From a virus: 34,870 bases of DNA. The notes beneath the pieces were generated by a model. That model did not search any database and was not told the DNA's origin. It worked only from the letters and a program-made list of their open reading frames with translations. Positions 8,831-18,701 of the stretch are shown in pieces (the stretch's first letter is position 1; each line of letters begins with the position of its first letter). Both the position numbers and the translations under genes were made by a program. Location: IMG/VR virus record IMGVR_UViG_3300044638_005452, positions 1-34,870 of that record; one strand, 5' to 3'.

Positions 8831-9022
8831 CTACTTGCTGGTGCGCAGTGCGCGCTTCTGCATGAAGGCTTCGAGCGCACGGTGGGAGATGCGCGTCCCT
8901 CGTTGTCCGCCCACCGAGAACGCGGTGAGTTCGCCGGAGCGAATGAAGTTTTCGAGGACAGTGCGGCGGCAGCGGACGGCTTTAGCCGCTTCGGTGACAG
9001 TTAGTACAAGAGGTGTGGTCAT
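8831..9022 (-). CDS. xis: Excisionase-like / MerR-type HTH DNA-binding protein
   Basis: A 63-aa protein starting MTTPLVLTVTEAAKAVRCRR. The TVTEAAKAVRCRRTVLENFI helix-turn-helix, GELTAFSVGG wing and RISHRALEAFM helix match the AlpA/excisionase (MerR-like) fold. In temperate phages such proteins bend DNA at att sites to direct excision or act as activators. It is the first gene of the leftward early operon, divergent from an RHH regulator. The start at 9022 leaves a 149-base divergent promoter region; an in-frame ATG at 9097 would run into it and is rejected. The xis label is by fold, not by homology search. Confidence 0.7.
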   Translation of the reverse strand: MTTPLVLTVTEAAKAVRCRRTVLENFIRSGELTAFSVGGQRGTRISHRALEAFMQKRALRTSK

Positions 9023-9145
9023 AAAAGTAATGGCGTATGCAAAGGTGCACACAATGCGGACCGGCGTGCAAATCTTTTTTTTGGGGGCGTGCGTCATAGG
9101 GTGAAGACCCCATGTCCGGCGAAGGGGCCGGTGTTGACATCGTGA

Positions 9146-9169
9146 GGACTTGGGCGGACGTTTGCGGAC
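9146..9169 (+). promoter_or_regulatory. Operator-like site B: three GGAC repeats, 10-bp period
   Basis: GGACTTGGGC, GGACGTTTGC and GGACG begin at 9146, 9156 and 9166, ending three bases before the ATG at 9172. A TTGACA hexamer lies at 9134-9139, so the repeats would cover the -10 and the start. The site is suited to autorepression of the RHH gene and perhaps to control of the divergent excisionase promoter. The rest of the 9023-9171 gap has an isolated GGAC at 9058 and a GGGTgaagACCC hairpin, but no clear second promoter. Confidence 0.6.
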
Positions 9170-9171
9170 GT

Positions 9172-9432
9172 ATGAAAACCAAAACAAGGGCAGCACGTCC
9201 CGATAGCAAGCGCGTCACGGTTTCGCTTCTGCCGACGCTACACGCCAGAATCATGCGAGCTGCGCCCGCGCACCGCGTGAGCAACAACCGGTATGCGCAG
9301 ATGGCGCTCGAATTCTTCCTCGACTGCGAGGAGGCATTCGGAGGGCCGCTTACGGACCAGTTCCGAGGCATGACGGTGCGGCACCTCAAGCAAACGCAGG
9401 AAAAACTGCAGCAGTTTCTCGCCGAGCAGTAA
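9172..9432 (+). CDS. Ribbon-helix-helix transcriptional regulator
   Basis: An 86-aa protein from ATG 9172. After a basic lead (MKTKTRAARPDSK) comes a beta strand KRVTVSLLP (about residues 13-21) and two helices, LHARIMRAAPAH and NNRYAQMALEFFLDCEEAF. This is the MetJ/Arc/CopG-type RHH layout. RHH dimers bind tandem short repeats through the major groove. The GGAC triplet repeat directly upstream, and copies in three other control regions, make this the leading candidate for the phage's shared repressor. The C-terminal helix (HLKQTQEKLQQFLAEQ) may oligomerise. A T8 tract follows the stop. Confidence 0.7.
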   Translation: MKTKTRAARPDSKRVTVSLLPTLHARIMRAAPAHRVSNNRYAQMALEFFLDCEEAFGGPLTDQFRGMTVRHLKQTQEKLQQFLAEQ

Positions 9433-11533: not shown

Positions 11534-11604
11534 TTCGACACGTCGCGCAGGACGTGTCTAAATTTCGGCGTTTCTTCGACACGTTGCACCGGACCTGTCT
11601 AATT
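11534..11604. repeat. Tandem pair of ~31-bp imperfect palindromic repeats at integrase 3' end
   Basis: Repeat 1 (11534-11564) contains GACACGTC-gcgcag-GACGTGTC, a perfect 8-bp inverted repeat. Repeat 2 (11575-11604) is a diverged copy (GACACGTTGCACCGGACCTGTC) overlapping the integrase stop codon. Both start with TTCGACACGT and end with a TGTCTAA-AATT-type motif, 41 bp apart. They could be binding sites for a dimeric protein, recombinase accessory sites, or paired hairpins. No poly-T follows in either direction. Confidence 0.6.
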
Positions 11605-12720
11605 ACTTGGCTTATCCCAGACTGATGCCACATCAACCTCGCGGTCGTACACCGCGTAGAATCTCGCCGTCGTCTGCGGGCTGGTGTGTCCGAGCATGTG
11701 CTGCACAAGCGAGATCTTTCCGGTCGCGTTGAGCATGTCGGAACCGGCTTGCCGTCGCAGCTCGTAGGCAGCCGAGCGACGGTCGGGGATGAACTCGCGG
11801 ACCCATGCGTTGAACATCCGCTCCATGAATCTCTTCCGCGCCTCAAGAGTCTTGCCGGTGATCAGGTAGTCGCCCTCGACCGCGAGCAGCTCCGCGGACA
11901 TCCACTCCGGTAGGCTCATGACTCTGCCGCGATTGTGGCCGGTCTTGAGCGTCACGCCTTCCTCCGGCCGCTCGATGATCACGATAACCTTCCGGTCCTC
12001 GCGGTCCTCGATCCATGACTTGCGGGCGGCGGCGCACTCCGAGGGGGTCATACCGAGGTATCGAGTTAGTAAATACGCGCGGCGGACGGACCCGCCCATG
12101 GCCTTGCTCGAAGCATCCATCTTTTCGAGGATCTCCGGCGCGATACGGACGAATGTGCTGACCGGCGCCTTCATGCGCGTAGAAGCGACGCAAAATTTGT
12201 AGATGCTATCCGGCAGCTCAAAACCCTCCCATTCGAGGCTGTGTGCAAAGATGGAGCGGGTCGCGGCGAGGTTGGTGCGGACGGAGTAGGGGCTGCCCTT
12301 GTAGTTTTGTTGGTATTGCGCAATGAGCGCGGGCGTTAGGATCGAGAGTGGCTTTTGCTTGATGACTTCCGCGTCCTCAATGCCCAAAGCCACGCGCAAA
12401 AACCGGATCATGCAATTGACATTTTCACGCGCGCTATTGATCTTGCTGACCTTCTGGTAATGCTCAATTGCCCTGCCAATCGTTTTGGACGTGTCTCGCC
12501 GCGCGTATTCGCGGACGGCGGCCATACCCTTGGCTGCCGCCTCATCGATGATCACCTTTGCTCGCGCCTTGGCAAACGGGAGGTCGGCCGTTCCAAGACT
12601 GATGCGCTTACGGTTCCGGTCGCTAGGGTGGTAAAATTTGAGCTGCCAGTAGGGCGAGTTACCAACTTTGTAAATTCGCCCCTTGATCGAGCTTGCTGTG
12701 ATGAGGTGAGTGGTTTCCAT
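11599..12720 (-). CDS. int: Tyrosine integrase with atypical catalytic residues
   Basis: A 373-aa phage integrase. It has an N-terminal arm-type region (residues 10-90), a core-binding domain (about 95-190) and a C-terminal catalytic domain. Visible motifs are LKTGHNRGRV with the beta-hairpin Lys (about 259), YELRRQ with motif II Arg (about 322), LGHTSPQTT with His (about 345) and RFYAVYD with the likely nucleophilic Tyr (about 355). The usual motif I G-L-R is LGMTPSE here, so the first Arg appears replaced by Thr, and the usual HxLR is YELR. ATG 12720 (METTHL) is chosen; the longer frame crosses non-conserved sequence. It reads away from the attachment site. Confidence 0.85.
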   Translation of the reverse strand: METTHLITASSIKGRIYKVGNSPYWQLKFYHPSDRNRKRISLGTADLPFAKARAKVIIDEAAAKGMAAVREYARRDTSKTIGRAIEHYQKVSKINSARENVNCMIRFLRVALGIEDAEVIKQKPLSILTPALIAQYQQNYKGSPYSVRTNLAATRSIFAHSLEWEGFELPDSIYKFCVASTRMKAPVSTFVRIAPEILEKMDASSKAMGGSVRRAYLLTRYLGMTPSECAAARKSWIEDREDRKVIVIIERPEEGVTLKTGHNRGRVMSLPEWMSAELLAVEGDYLITGKTLEARKRFMERMFNAWVREFIPDRRSAAYELRRQAGSDMLNATGKISLVQHMLGHTSPQTTARFYAVYDREVDVASVWDKPSN

Positions 12721-12729
12721 AACGCACTC

Positions 12730-12900
12730 ATGGCACGCCCCAAAATGCCCCGCAAGAACTATCTGACGGAGCACTTACTAGATCCGTCAAAAATTGGCGG
12801 ATCGTCCGGCAGTAAGGCCCGCTATTCGGGACAATTTTGGACGACGAAGGACGCTAATTTACTCAGGAATTTGAGAGTCGCCGGTATAGCTCAGTGGTAG
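12730..12900 (+). CDS. Possible 56-aa basic protein running into the tRNA half-gene
   Basis: The ORF begins MARPKMPRKNYLTEHLLDPS and has protein-like composition (KARYSGQFWTTKDANLLRNL), but its last residues (GIAQW) and stop are encoded by the tRNA 5' half. No Shine-Dalgarno is seen; the ATG is 10 bases from the divergent integrase start. Operator-like site D lies inside it. It may be a chance ORF over the attachment region. Confidence 0.3.
   Translation: MARPKMPRKNYLTEHLLDPSKIGGSSGSKARYSGQFWTTKDANLLRNLRVAGIAQW
12829..12852 (+). promoter_or_regulatory. Operator-like site D: three GGAC repeats, 10-bp period
   Basis: GGACAATTTT, GGACGACGAA and GGACGC start at 12829, 12839 and 12849. The site is about 110 bases upstream of the integrase start and 27 bases before the tRNA half-gene. 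It could control integrase transcription or modulate assembly of the integration complex, linking both to the regulator that reads sites A-C. Confidence 0.6.
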
Positions 12901-12919
12901 AGCACCTGATTTGTAATCA
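12880..12919 (+). tRNA. 5' half of tRNA-Thr(TGT) carried in the attachment site
   Basis: GCCGGTATAGCTCAGTGGTA continues through a normal D-arm into CCTGA-TTTGTAA-TCA, giving a TGT anticodon loop. Then homology to a tRNA stops: the next bases TCTG do not complete the anticodon stem and no T-arm (GGTTCGA) or matching acceptor end follows in the next 250 bases. The centre TGATT-TGT-AATCA (12907-12919) is a perfect symmetric site fitting a 7-bp tyrosine recombinase crossover at the anticodon loop. Integration into a host tRNA-Thr would replace its 5' half with this phage copy. Confidence 0.75.
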
Positions 12920-12990
12920 TCTGCGGACCCAGCATTCATGCGGGTTGGCGGGCACTCTGGCGGTGTATCTGGCAGTGCCGTTTTTGACGG

Positions 12991-13169: not shown

Positions 13170-16100
13170 CTATTGAATGCCGAGGTTGCGCAGCTCGGCC
13201 GGAGACAGCCCGATTAGCTCCTCAACCGGCCCTAGGAGGCCGCGGCCAAGCCGCACTCGTCCATCAGATCCTTGCACCCCTTGACCTGATCCAGCGTCAC
13301 CTTGTCCGGCCCTCCGCTGTAGGCCACCGCCTCGTCGAGAAAGCCGTCCAGAAGATCCTTCTGCGTCTCGGAATAGAGACCCTCGTTTATCTCCTTGGCG
13401 AACACCTGACGAACTTTGGCTAACAAGCTCTCGTAGGCTTTTTGGTCTTTGTTCATTGGTTCCCTTCCATTTCATTAGAACGATTGACGGCATTCCTGCC
13501 GCTTCGTCCCACCCTGTACTCTTCCAGTATTTCTTGAGATCGGCAAGCTCTGTTTTTGAGTAAAAAGACGAGTCAAACGGTATCTCGCCAACCTTTTCAA
13601 AGCCAAATCGCTTGTAAAGTTTCGGCAAAAATCCGGTTGGCGCTTTGCTGCTTTTGACGGCGAAACAGTCCAGCGCCGTCACACCATTTTGCAGCGCCTT
13701 GACGACAATGGCGTCGGCCATACCTCCGGCCTTGCGCTCGTTATTCATCACCAGCGTCAGCGTGCGCTCATCCGGCCCAAAGCCATACGCATCTGGAGCC
13801 AGACCATAGTCTGACGCCGGATCGCCTTTCCGCACTCCGAAGTACACGCCGGAGTCGCCTAGCTGGAAGACCTCAAGCTCTTTTGCGCGCACCTTGCCGC
13901 TAAGGGTTTTTAGATCATACCTAGAAAGAGCCACTTTGGCGGGAGATGCGTTCAGCGCGCTAACGATGTCTGCCGGACTAACGCCGCCCTGCTTCACGCT
14001 TGCCGAGGTGGAGCGCCACTGATCGTTGACGGCCATGTTGATAAGCTGCGCATGCCGCGGAGACTTGATCGCCGTGTACGCGGTGCTTGGAATCCTGTCA
14101 GCAATAGCGTCAGTGATCACCTGCACAGGCTTTGCCAAGTCAAGCGCGCGTCTGTCTCCTTGCTGCGGCTTACCCTGTGCCCTTCTCTGCGCGTAAAAGT
14201 CATCGAAGATCGTCTCGACGTTAATGGGGCGCGCGAATCGGCCGAGAACCCTGCCGCGCACGGCGTATTGATAGGATGGATGCTTCAGCGTTCCATTCTC
14301 TCCGAGTTTAAGAACCGGAGCGCCCGCCGTTAGCTCGATAGCCATGACCGCGTCGCCGATCCGCAGTCCGTCAAACTCCGAGGAGCGCATCTCGTCCAAT
14401 ATGCGCTGCAAGTTTGGCGCCCCCAGAGCTTCGGCCTCTTTCGATCCGAGAATCTGCGCGATGCGACTTCTGCTTCTTTCTCCTTGGAACGGTAGCTTGT
14501 TGACGTACGCCATGACGTCCGGCGACTCGATGCCAACAAAGTCAGGCATCTCCACGCGAATCATGTCATCGAGGCGCTGCAAATTGTCTCCGGCAATTCT
14601 TCCATCGCGCGCATAGGCTGCGTTTGTTGCAATGACCGCCGTGGACGTTTCCGTGTTGCTGACGTGCGCGTTTTTGTGCATGGCCGCGACGAGCATGATT
14701 GCGCCCTCGTCTGCGCGCTTGGCCTTGGTTGTTGAAACTCCGGCGCCCTGATTAGACCACACGTTGGTTTCCTCGCCAACACGCTCTGTTTGTAGCAACG
14801 GCCATTCTGGTCCGCCGTGTGTTCTCACCGGTATGGCCACCTCGCTTGAATCAATGCCCCTGTACAACTTGCCCGCGCTTGTAAGGTCCGCGAAGGACGC
14901 AAAGACCTTTCTCCCGCGCAGGTCTTTGAGCGTAATAACAGGAGCCTCTTGCAGCGTGCGCCAGACGGTGCCGCCTTCGTCGCTGACAACGGTGTCCGGC
15001 AGGAAGCTGACATTTGCCTTGTCCGGCATAGCACTCCCACGCTGCGCCGCGCCACCCGCCGGAAACTGTTGCCTATACTGCCCATCCGCCGCTCGGAATC
15101 CCTGCGCGTCCGCGTTCTGCCAATTGGTTGCGTTGCTAAAGCCGCGCTTAACCGCCTCCTTGTTCATCCAAGCCGCCTTGCGGTCGGCGTCGAACTGTCC
15201 GTATTGATCCAGAGACATGCGACCGGCGTCGTCCGGCAGCGCGTTGATGTTGATCTTGTTGTAGTGCGGGAAGTAGCCGGTGCCATATGGCTCCGCGTAG
15301 TTGATGCGGTCTAGGCGGAACGTGCGGACGCTGCCTTGGTTGTTCAGCGTGTACCAAGCAGGGTTGCTCTGGCGCTGCATCACCGTGCCGGTGCCCAGCA
15401 ATCCGTTGAGGATGTTCTTGCGCGTCACGCCGAGTCCGGTCTCGCCCGCGACGCCGTTCTCGTAGTTGCTGAGAAGCTGCTTTAAGCCGGTCTCCACCGC
15501 GCGGAGGTCATTGCCAAACTCACCGAGCTGCTCGTTATCGATGGCGCGAATGGCCGAAGCGCGAAACGAGTTAAGGTCAATCGCCTTGATCAGCACATGA
15601 TTCTTGGTCGAGACGGCGGCACCGAAGGGAACCATCTCTCCGGTCTTGGCCTCGATGTTGCCGTAGTTTGTGACCTTGTACGTTCCTGAGTCGCGACTGC
15701 CGATGACGTTGATGGAATACAAATAGCTGCGACCTTCTGCGCGTCCGGCCTCAAACTCTCGAACGAGATTGCGATGGTACTCCGGTATCTGGATGAAGTA
15801 GTCGAACTGGGGCGGCAGGTTGGGTCCGCCAACTTCGACGCGGCCATTGCTAAGTTTGCGAGCGCCCCACTCGTTGCTGTTCTCGTTGACGAACTTAGTC
15901 CGGTCGTTGATCGACTTAATCGTGGCAGCGCGCGACTTGTCCTGCGTATTGATCTGCTGCTGTGACTTGGGAACGACTGTTCCGTCTGGACGCTGAAAGA
16001 ACAAATCGTTTTCAACCACATTGCCGTTCTTATGCAGGCGAGTGTGAGGACTGCGGATGGCATCGCTGGCCTTGCCGGTAGGAGCAATCGGCGTGCCGCG

Positions 16101-18701
16101 CTGCTTGACGGCGCCTTCCTTTTCCAGACCGACCAGATACCGGTCGAACGTCTTGACGTAGTCGTTGACAGCTTTGCGCATCTCCGGCGTGTCGAAGAGC
16201 GGGTTTTCCACGAAAAGCCGGTTCGGTGTCTCCAGTCGTCCATTGCCGCGCATCCGAGCGCCCATGGCTTCGAAGCCTGCAGAGGCGGCGCCGACCGCGC
16301 GACTGAGCGGACCACTGGCGCGAATGCCGGAAAGGTTCAGGCCCTTGCCAAGTCCGCTGAATGTCTCCGCGGCAATCTCGTCGCGCGCCCAGTCCCAAGA
16401 GATCTCGCCCTGCGCCAAGCGCTCTTGGTTTAGCATGTCGGCGCGCTCTTCGATGGCCTGCTTGCGCCAGTCGGTGTCGTTTGCCCAGCGTTCGCGGATA
16501 AACTCATTCTTGAGCGCCTGCTCGGCCGCTTCGTCGCCACCGGCCGCGGCGATGCGTGTCACCTCATCAGGGCGCAACACGTTCAATTGGATGCCGGTCG
16601 TGCCGTCGCGTACCTCCTGCGTGAGATTCGCTGTGACGTATTCGCGCCCGCGGGCAGCGACTCCATCGGTGCCATACTGCTGGTCAACCATGGCCCGCAT
16701 GCCGCGCTTGACCTCACCGCCGAGGATGTCGCTCTTGAGGATGGCGTGGCCGATCTCATGGCCAGCCACGTCGCCGGTCGCCATCTTGTCTAGGTTAACA
16801 AAGATCCGCGGGCGCTGGCCCTTCTTGGCGTCAACATAGATGCCGCGCGTGCCGAGACCCATGGCTTCCTTGACCGTAGTGTTGATCTCGTAATCCGTAG
16901 CGCGCAGGGGAATGAAGTCCGCCTTGGGCGAGATGACCGACTGCATGCGAGCCATGTTGACCAGCCTGTCGTGCGGCATCATGTTGGCCATCGATGTGGC
17001 GTCGCCGCCGGAGATCTCTGCATCGGCCAGCATCTTGGCTACCAGCGCGTCATCGAACTCCGACATGCGGCGCATCTTGCCGCCGATCACACCGGCACCG
17101 GCGCCGACAGTCATGATCGCGCCAAGGATCTCCGGCTGGCGCTCTTCGGGCGCAATGGCTGCCAGCGGCACGGCGATGGGCGCCGTCGCCACCGCACCGC
17201 TCACTGCGTCGTCGGCTAGGCGGAATGCCTGCGTGGCGCCCAGCTTGTCGAGCGTAGCGGCCGACCGGCGGGCGATAGGCGAAAGTCCCTGCGTCTCGCT
17301 GACGCGGCGCAGTGTGCTGTCTGCGGAGGTGAAAAAGCCATCGTAGGCACGGCGGTAGCGCTCAGGGATGGGAGCGCTGCGCAGCTTGCTCGCCGCTTCA
17401 ACGCGCGATGCACCGACACCGCCGATGCCAATCTCGCGGGCGAGGATGCTGCCGGTCTTTAGTCCGCGCTCGGTTACCCGAAGAACGGCACCTGACTTTT
17501 TCAGCGCGGCCATCGCCGCCGCCGCCTTGAATGAAACACTGCTCAGGGCGGACATCTGCTGCGAGCCGGTCAGGCCGGTTGCGGATTCAATGCCTTCGAC
17601 AATTCTTCCGTAGCCAGCCTCTGCTTTGCCTGCCGCATAACCGGCAACCTTCGACACGCCCTTGAGCGGTGTGCCCGCGAGACTGCCAACGCGACGCAGC
17701 AACCTCACCTTGTTGGCGGCGCCAAGGCCCGCCGGAATGGCAATGTTTAGAGGATCTAAAACAAGCGCGCTGCCAAGCACTAGACCCTCGTTGAGCTTCG
17801 ACTCATCGATGCCCATCTCCGCGCGGCCGTCCGGCAGCGTGCCGATGTTGGTCTCGGTGACGTTCGCCGCCTGTTGCTGGAACGAGCGGTCGCGGATGAA
17901 GCGCTGGTATTGGGTGTCCTCGTCGTCCGCCTCCTGCTCCTGCGTCTTTTCGTAGGCACCGGACGCCATGGCCTGCTCTCTGGCCTGAGCGAAAATCTGC
18001 GCGTCGGCCTGAGCGTTGCCGGTGAACTTGTTCTCCGCGGCGAGTTGCTGGCGCAGTTGGTTGTCGATCACGTTGACGCGCTCGGTCTCTCGGACGCCGT
18101 CATTGACGACGTCACCGGCCCAAGACCACAGCTCGGCGGTGCTGATGCTGGCTTGGCGCATGCCCTCCGCGGAAGAGTTGACCCACTCGTCGTAGGCTTT
18201 GGTCCCGCGCGCGACGAAGTCAAAAGGAGCGTAGGCTGTCGCAGCCGCCGCTTGAACGAGACCACCGGCAATAGCCTGACCGGCCTCGAAGAACTTGCCC
18301 ACCTTGTCGTCGCGGCGCTGGCGCAGTTCGCTGTAGCGCTTCCACTCGTCTTTGGTGGGAATGTAGGAAATGTTGCCGACCCGCTCGTAGTCCGCTTGGT
18401 CTACCTCCGCGACGGAAAGCACCCTCTTGGGAGCAGGAACTTGAGGGCCGACCGAGCGGTCAGGGCGAGCGCCCATAGCGCGGCCAAAAGACGTCTCAGC
18501 CGCCACGCTGTTCTGCGCCTCTGCAGCGTCAGTCTGCTCGGCCGTCAGCATGGCGGGAGCGTCCTGACGCGCCGCCGCGCGGTTAACGCGGGCGGTCAGA
18601 ACGTCTTCCTTTTGCGGAATTACGGCGCTCCAATTGACCGGCTTCTGCTGCTTGCCGTCAATCTCAGCGACCTGTTCCGCCGTAAGTGTTTTTGGCGGCA
18701 T
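13170..18701 (-). CDS. Giant polyvalent internal virion protein (HExxH motif and GNAT-like domain)
   Basis: An 1843-aa protein. The N-terminal third is helical with alanine-rich hydrophobic stretches (LVQAAAATAYAPFDFVARG; later APIAVPLAAIAPEE), as in ejected internal virion proteins of podoviruses. At about residue 647 there is GHEIGHAIL, a zinc-protease HExxH motif. Residues about 1240-1500 resemble uncharacterised domains of phage large polyvalent proteins. Residues about 1600-1740 are GNAT-like (VMNNERKAGGMADAIVVKAL, then PKLYKRFGFEKVGEIPF). The likely role is ejection into the host with peptidoglycan, membrane or host-protein activities. The last ~95 residues are Gly/Arg/Ser-rich and overlap another gene. 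Confidence 0.75.
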   Translation of the reverse strand: MPPKTLTAEQVAEIDGKQQKPVNWSAVIPQKEDVLTARVNRAAARQDAPAMLTAEQTDAAEAQNSVAAETSFGRAMGARPDRSVGPQVPAPKRVLSVAEVDQADYERVGNISYIPTKDEWKRYSELRQRRDDKVGKFFEAGQAIAGGLVQAAAATAYAPFDFVARGTKAYDEWVNSSAEGMRQASISTAELWSWAGDVVNDGVRETERVNVIDNQLRQQLAAENKFTGNAQADAQIFAQAREQAMASGAYEKTQEQEADDEDTQYQRFIRDRSFQQQAANVTETNIGTLPDGRAEMGIDESKLNEGLVLGSALVLDPLNIAIPAGLGAANKVRLLRRVGSLAGTPLKGVSKVAGYAAGKAEAGYGRIVEGIESATGLTGSQQMSALSSVSFKAAAAMAALKKSGAVLRVTERGLKTGSILAREIGIGGVGASRVEAASKLRSAPIPERYRRAYDGFFTSADSTLRRVSETQGLSPIARRSAATLDKLGATQAFRLADDAVSGAVATAPIAVPLAAIAPEERQPEILGAIMTVGAGAGVIGGKMRRMSEFDDALVAKMLADAEISGGDATSMANMMPHDRLVNMARMQSVISPKADFIPLRATDYEINTTVKEAMGLGTRGIYVDAKKGQRPRIFVNLDKMATGDVAGHEIGHAILKSDILGGEVKRGMRAMVDQQYGTDGVAARGREYVTANLTQEVRDGTTGIQLNVLRPDEVTRIAAAGGDEAAEQALKNEFIRERWANDTDWRKQAIEERADMLNQERLAQGEISWDWARDEIAAETFSGLGKGLNLSGIRASGPLSRAVGAASAGFEAMGARMRGNGRLETPNRLFVENPLFDTPEMRKAVNDYVKTFDRYLVGLEKEGAVKQRGTPIAPTGKASDAIRSPHTRLHKNGNVVENDLFFQRPDGTVVPKSQQQINTQDKSRAATIKSINDRTKFVNENSNEWGARKLSNGRVEVGGPNLPPQFDYFIQIPEYHRNLVREFEAGRAEGRSYLYSINVIGSRDSGTYKVTNYGNIEAKTGEMVPFGAAVSTKNHVLIKAIDLNSFRASAIRAIDNEQLGEFGNDLRAVETGLKQLLSNYENGVAGETGLGVTRKNILNGLLGTGTVMQRQSNPAWYTLNNQGSVRTFRLDRINYAEPYGTGYFPHYNKININALPDDAGRMSLDQYGQFDADRKAAWMNKEAVKRGFSNATNWQNADAQGFRAADGQYRQQFPAGGAAQRGSAMPDKANVSFLPDTVVSDEGGTVWRTLQEAPVITLKDLRGRKVFASFADLTSAGKLYRGIDSSEVAIPVRTHGGPEWPLLQTERVGEETNVWSNQGAGVSTTKAKRADEGAIMLVAAMHKNAHVSNTETSTAVIATNAAYARDGRIAGDNLQRLDDMIRVEMPDFVGIESPDVMAYVNKLPFQGERSRSRIAQILGSKEAEALGAPNLQRILDEMRSSEFDGLRIGDAVMAIELTAGAPVLKLGENGTLKHPSYQYAVRGRVLGRFARPINVETIFDDFYAQRRAQGKPQQGDRRALDLAKPVQVITDAIADRIPSTAYTAIKSPRHAQLINMAVNDQWRSTSASVKQGGVSPADIVSALNASPAKVALSRYDLKTLSGKVRAKELEVFQLGDSGVYFGVRKGDPASDYGLAPDAYGFGPDERTLTLVMNNERKAGGMADAIVVKALQNGVTALDCFAVKSSKAPTGFLPKLYKRFGFEKVGEIPFDSSFYSKTELADLKKYWKSTGWDEAAGMPSIVLMKWKGTNEQRPKSLRELVSQSSSGVRQGDKRGSLFRDAEGSSGRLSRRGGGLQRRAGQGDAGSGQGVQGSDGRVRLGRGLLGPVEELIGLSPAELRNLGIQ
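13232..13456 (-). CDS. 74-aa protein overlapping the 3' end of the giant gene
   Basis: MNKDQKAYESLLAKVRQVFA continues to a helical, acidic C-terminus (QVKGCKDLMDECGLAAAS). GGAAGGGA lies about 5 bases before the ATG. It is read in a different frame entirely inside the last part of the 1843-aa gene, and its composition is far more protein-like than the overlapping Gly/Arg-rich frame. It may be the last gene of the structural operon, with the giant frame extended through it. No family recognised. Confidence 0.6.
   Translation of the reverse strand: MNKDQKAYESLLAKVRQVFAKEINEGLYSETQKDLLDGFLDEAVAYSGGPDKVTLDQVKGCKDLMDECGLAAAS

Follow-up and report, generated by a model that had tools for sequence, protein, structure and literature searches.

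A putative phage attachment site that carries the 5' half of tRNA-Thr(TGT), in an integrase clade with five tRNA targets

The stretch of DNA analysed here, which we call the window, is the whole of a 34,870-bp IMG/VR virus record. Besides a tyrosine integrase gene, it encodes a DnaB helicase, a T7-type SSB and an SU10-type major capsid protein. The nearest relatives of the capsid protein in the phage collection (<=37% identity) include phages of Sulfitobacter, Vibrio, Sinorhizobium and Pseudomonas, and a check of the annotation of five capsid-protein relatives gave no lead. A 121-aa protein with an excisionase-type HTH_17 domain (8831-9196, minus strand; Pfam E 5.9e-9) is a candidate excisionase, and the 1843-aa reading frame that adjoins the attachment site (13170-18701, minus strand) is without a PHROG or NCBIfam match. 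The integrase gene is divergent from a partial tRNA gene, whose first base lies 160 bp upstream of the integrase start; an upstream GTG at 12774 is a possible alternative start. The features of the locus are as follows:

11599-12720, minus strand: tyrosine integrase, 373 aa (Pfam PF00589, 8e-9; PHROG 1, 3e-23), start placed by alignment
12783-12811, plus strand: P-arm repeats TCCGTCA (12783-12789), ATTGGCG (12793-12799) and TCCGGCA (12805-12811)
12829-12852, plus strand: GGAC three times, spaced exactly 10 bp apart (12829, 12839, 12849), between the P arm and the core
12864-12876, minus strand: tentative IHF-like sequence TCTCAAATTCCTG in the leader that belongs to the phage, with a match at 7 of the 9 consensus positions
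12880-12919, plus strand: predicted attP core, the 5' half of tRNA-Thr(TGT), consisting of tRNA bases 1-37 and TCA of the 3' anticodon-stem strand
12910-12916, plus strand: anticodon loop TTTGTAA (anticodon TGT at 12912-12914), at or shortly after which the similarity of clade members to tRNA stops (inside it in L039-L043); presumed 7-bp overlap region of the crossover
12917-12923, plus strand: TCATCTG, an imperfect inverted repeat of CACCTGA (12903-12909) that matches at 5 of 7 positions and is presumed to be the integrase's right core-type site
12956-12974, plus strand: P'-arm repeats TCTGGCG (12956-12962) and TCTGGCA (12968-12974)

The 40 bases at 12880-12919 (plus strand; GCCGGTATAGCTCAGTGGTAGAGCACCTGATTTGTAATCA) cover a tRNA from the acceptor 5' strand through a complete D-arm, the 5' strand of the anticodon stem and the anticodon loop, and reach three bases into the 3' strand of that stem. 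The Rfam tRNA model aligns its 5' part at 12880, reaching 25.3 bits against a gathering score of 29, with its 3' part forced onto unrelated phage sequence. By BLAST the 40-mer matches bacterial tRNA-Thr genes at up to 95% identity (E 1e-8); the closest matches seen were mostly proteobacterial, in a collection that is itself dominated by such organisms. The first-pass annotation had claimed that the attP holds the 5' half of tRNA-Thr(TGT) and not the 3' half, and this proved correct: the tRNA sequence runs from base 1 through the anticodon loop, and while natural tRNA-Thr(TGT) genes mostly go on ...TGTAATCAGG.GGTC, the phage departs from that after TCA (TCATCTGCGG). ARAGORN called no tRNA over the 34,870 bp, a T-arm consensus was absent from both strands of the window, and the best window matches to two genuine tRNA 3' halves scored no better than shuffled ones. 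With no matching 3' half in the window by these searches or by Rfam, a split tRNA is rejected as well. The Rfam, BLAST, T-arm and 3'-half searches thus establish that the tRNA half is genuine and not a product of chance. When the window's half is joined to the 3' half from Neisseria or Pseudomonas, ARAGORN calls the chimera tRNA-Thr(tgt).

A partial tRNA at an integrase site also brings to mind a different use of tRNA genes by phages. In mycobacteriophage Fionnbharth, the host tRNA is destroyed when the phage integrates, and the phage supplies a complete tRNA in its stead (PMC10865867). Such tRNA-dependent lysogeny of actinobacteriophages is like what we propose here in that a tyrosine integrase acts at the anticodon region of a tRNA (PMC10865867), but there the phage tRNA complements what is lost, whereas here the half gene should restore the tRNA and the phage brings no tRNA of its own. 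No complete tRNA was detected in the window by ARAGORN or Rfam, the tRNA model matches ten long relative records only at attP (save for a tmRNA-like piece in G005), and the shared block is about 40 bp rather than about 10. We give tRNA-dependent lysogeny virtually no credence, and for the window it is contradicted, as a complete cognate tRNA was not found. The tmRNA-like piece is a 71-nt stretch joining both tmRNA ends with nearly all of the middle missing, seen in G005 (the contig of L022; 20790-20857, minus strand) and in L077 (88-158, minus strand). It has the 5' sequence GGGCGCGGACAACAGGCTTCGACGG, a T-arm and a matching acceptor strand, with an Rfam tmRNA E of 1.7e-10 that falls below the gathering score, and it is situated within reading frames.

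About 50 viral contigs with related integrases came out of three scans, and the integrases from the first two scans are 54-88% identical to the window's. Wherever the upstream region could be read (44 of 44 contigs, a set that includes the window and some near-identical copies and holds 13 distinct halves), a tRNA 5' half occupies the same position, flanked by arm-type repeats and 132-160 bp away from the start of the integrase, and all of these integrase-side sites are attP. The targets are Thr-TGT (24), Phe-GAA (8), Met-CAT (5), Thr-CGT (5) and Lys-CTT (2). In a midpoint-rooted integrase tree, from which the later-found Phe members were left out, members group largely by target, with Thr-CGT and Met apart from the rest and Lys nested among Thr-TGT. 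Alignment of the clade sets the limits of identity that the first-pass annotation had read from the window: similarity to the tRNA starts at base 1 and continues to the anticodon loop or a few bases beyond, seeming to stop inside the loop in L039-L043, while natural genes continue differently.

Each of the 44 halves has a fully paired 4-bp D-stem, which occurs in three Watson-Crick versions (GCTC/GAGC, GCAC/GTGC and GTTC/GAAC) and one with a G-U pair. Both GCTC/GAGC and GCAC/GTGC are found within the Thr-TGT members and again within the Met members, so this compensatory difference arose more than once. Renewed copying from hosts or selection may account for the halves, and either way they fit a tRNA. 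Two further observations concern variation at single sites. The attP of L009 and L011 have identical leaders and P' sides over the stretch compared but differ in the D-loop of the half (CAGCTGGTAG versus CAGTGGTAG), which looks like a swap of the half by itself. In L039, L041, L042 and L043 the attP loop reads TTTGTTC and is followed by TCAGGTG, a perfect inverted repeat of the 5' stem side; since an ordinary tRNA-Thr(TGT) loop has AA at its end, the overlap would not be identical between attP and attB in these members.

Arm repeats of the form T[TC][TC]GGCA flank the half whichever tRNA it comes from, at about -98, -87 and -75 on one side and +66 to +89 on the other, counted from the tRNA start. 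The offsets of the window's P-arm repeats are about the same in relatives with other tRNA halves, and although not all sites are present in all members, their arrangement resembles that of lambda-type arm sites. Thr-TGT and Lys members have in common the leader immediately in front of the tRNA, GAATTTGATAG..C, which is therefore the phage's own and not tied to a single tRNA gene. The IHF-like sequence recurs at -16/-17 in many members, fits the consensus at all 9 of 9 positions in L039 and L044, and is absent in Thr-CGT and Met members. GGAC-like repeats are also present in several Thr-TGT and Lys relatives, and those of the window are possibly sites for an excisionase or an accessory protein. 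The inverted repeat that forms the presumed right core-type site is perfect in L039-L043. Just downstream of the P' arm, L014, L016, L018, L025 and L153-L158 have a conserved hairpin-like stretch (GGGCCAGCCGTAGCTGACCC and variants), which was not seen in the window; it is located where transcription from the host tRNA promoter would enter the prophage, and is possibly a terminator.

The integrase itself departs from the canonical active site. Its Phage_integrase domain scores above the curated cut-off (35.9 bits versus 27.1), and K259, R322, H345 and Y355, which correspond to the beta2-3 Lys, Arg II, the LGH His and the Tyr nucleophile, are invariant in the clade. When aligned with the lambda and phiM5 integrases, however, the Arg I position is Thr225 and the His of HxxR is Tyr319, both likewise invariant, and the clade has GMTP.E where others have GxRxxE. 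In CTnDOT-type integrases Arg I has been lost and another arginine substitutes (PMC8138268). Our integrases are likewise without Arg I in the usual place, a single trait that we compare without claiming membership in that subgroup (PMC8138268), and because the CTnDOT integrase also lacks Arg I, assignment as a tyrosine recombinase rests on the domain match. Activity is not assured by the sequence, given that Arg I and the HxxR His are missing, although the other catalytic residues are conserved in the clade. The AlphaFold model of the integrase is poor (mean pLDDT 62.5, with much of the catalytic domain below 60), and a search of solved structures by integrase sequence returned no match. The loss of Arg I, together with the fact that no integrated copy is known, is what one might expect if the 5' half were a relic or captured piece of a tRNA and not an active attachment site. 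But all 44 members hold a half at the same position between arm repeats beside the integrase, drawn from five different tRNAs, and a relic would not swap to other tRNAs and yet keep its D-stem. We consider a relic highly improbable and reject that reading on the strength of this conserved placement.

It is very probable, in our judgement, that 12783-12974 is the attP of a temperate phage, with its core at 12880-12919, and that integration at the anticodon loop of a host tRNA-Thr(TGT) gene restores the tRNA with a phage 5' half. The integrase would bind the arm repeats on both sides of the core, and strand exchange would take place between the anticodon loop of attP and the same loop of the host gene, and the integrase side would keep the leader and tRNA 5' half of the phage. 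We infer that the phage integrates in this way and that the exact cuts fall at the loop, 12910-12916. A crossover at the anticodon loop, as the first-pass annotation had proposed, agrees with the end of tRNA similarity there across the clade, with the flanking arm repeats and with the like geometry of a provirus described below. Because the crossover would lie in the loop, with the 5' half towards the integrase, one end of the prophage would carry phage leader, phage 5' half and host 3' half, making a whole chimeric tRNA-Thr(TGT) beside the integrase, and the opposite end would carry the host promoter, the truncated host 5' half and the phage P' arm, a dead fragment. The predicted junctions are an attL of host DNA, 5' half and CTGCGGACCCAGC, and an attR of GGAATTTGAGAGTC and whole tRNA-Thr.

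Transcription of the chimeric tRNA from phage DNA, which the first-pass annotation had also put forward, would follow from this geometry. A search upstream of 12880 did not bear it out with a promoter: no recognisable sigma-70 consensus was found there, and scanning 14 representatives at the right distance with a promoter matrix (approximate frequencies written from general knowledge) gave nothing better than shuffled sequence. One could therefore suppose, from the lack of a promoter consensus, that the phage integrates at the loop and leaves a chimeric tRNA that is unexpressed or unneeded, the 5' half being only a long recognition sequence and redundant host tRNA copies sufficing. Thr-CGT and Lys-CTT tRNAs are often dispensable, which would suit this idea, but Met-CAT, Phe-GAA and Thr-TGT tRNAs are usually essential. 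Also against it, the acceptor 5' strand and the D-arm, which lie outside the anticodon stem-loop, are intact in 44 of 44 halves, with compensatory changes in the D-stem, although the halves may simply have been copied recently from host genes. A silent or superfluous chimera seems unlikely to us.

The first-pass annotation had looked to attL and attR junctions in candidate hosts for confirmation, and for this clade none turned up in genome scans or in pattern scans with the core and P' side. No relatives of the integrase were found in 84,980 species genomes, whether searched with the integrase alone or with its alignment, with the caveat that pattern-based scans can miss distant relatives, and tblastn of phage and plasmid collections found no integrase relative. 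The core and P' pattern retrieved only integrase-bearing contigs already in our set and no attL, and a pattern scan for a full-length tRNA-Met retrieved nothing.

The predicted geometry does exist in an unrelated element. Among 45 viral contigs that contain a complete tRNA-Thr(TGT) of the window's core, provirus G011 has tRNA bases 1-42 at its left end, a whole 76-nt tRNA-Thr(TGT) at its right end and a tyrosine integrase, unrelated to the window's, inside:

L125:1-126 and L126:6612-6771: the two ends of G011, in 5'-half mode at tRNA-Thr(TGT)

For the window's clade G011 is only an analogy. Its core is flanked left and right by copies of one repeat (TTACGTCACAC), and when the 84 bp that precede the tRNA are compared between the two ends, they show 61% ungapped identity, as if G011 carried a diverged copy of the host region upstream of the tRNA, including the promoter, in which case such identity would be expected; alternatively, the left flank could be the edge of another element. 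The same tRNA gene is used in the ordinary 3' mode by G018 and, less exactly, by G017.

Integration that restores the 5' part of a tRNA is rare but already known, and the window is very probably a new, clade-wide case. Of the 3919 islands in the Islander collection, 3760 carry a 3' tDNA fragment and 159 a 5' one (PMC4383910), numbers that uphold the first-pass annotation's statement that carriage of the 3' end is the usual mode. The 5' islands and prophages of that collection share with our phages a tyrosine integrase, together with a crossover inside the tRNA gene and restoration of its 5' part by the element, both of which we predict for our phages (PMC4383910). In contrast to those islands, what we see here is the attP of free phages with no known integrated copy, a single integrase clade that holds to the mode over five tRNAs, and an integrase for which searches of genome, phage and plasmid collections found no relative. 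Archaeal integrases of the pTN3 type also use a tRNA 5' half, with the restored tRNA read from the integrase promoter (PMC8371274; PMC5495485), and 5'-half use is seldom seen in bacteria according to one review (PMC8371274). Like our system as we predict it, they have about 40 bp of attP-attB identity over the tRNA 5' half and part the restored tRNA from its original promoter (PMC8371274; PMC5495485), but in pTN3 the attP is part of the integrase gene and integration interrupts that gene, whereas ours is upstream of an integrase gene that is divergent and intact. Classic anticodon-loop prophages, G018 at tRNA-Thr(TGT) among them, resemble the predicted system in crossover region, arm sites and tRNA restoration; they carry the 3' half, however, so that the host promoter stays, whereas the window carries the 5' half.

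Integration in the 5'-restoring mode is not only rare but little studied, and it severs the host's own tRNA promoter, such that the invader must supply one. The 44 readable attP sites, with five tRNA targets and near-constant arm spacing, form a natural data set for studying how integrases change target, and the same set suits the question of whether phages supply tRNA promoters. We would go further only as speculation, on balance doubtful: this might be a widespread lineage whose lysogens have an essential tRNA (Thr-TGT, Met or Phe) transcribed only from the constant, phage-owned leader, with the prophage controlling host translation and possibly being addictive through it, and an integrase without Arg I might tolerate mismatches in the overlap, as the TTTGTTC attP loop of L039-L043 would entail, and so retarget easily between tRNAs.
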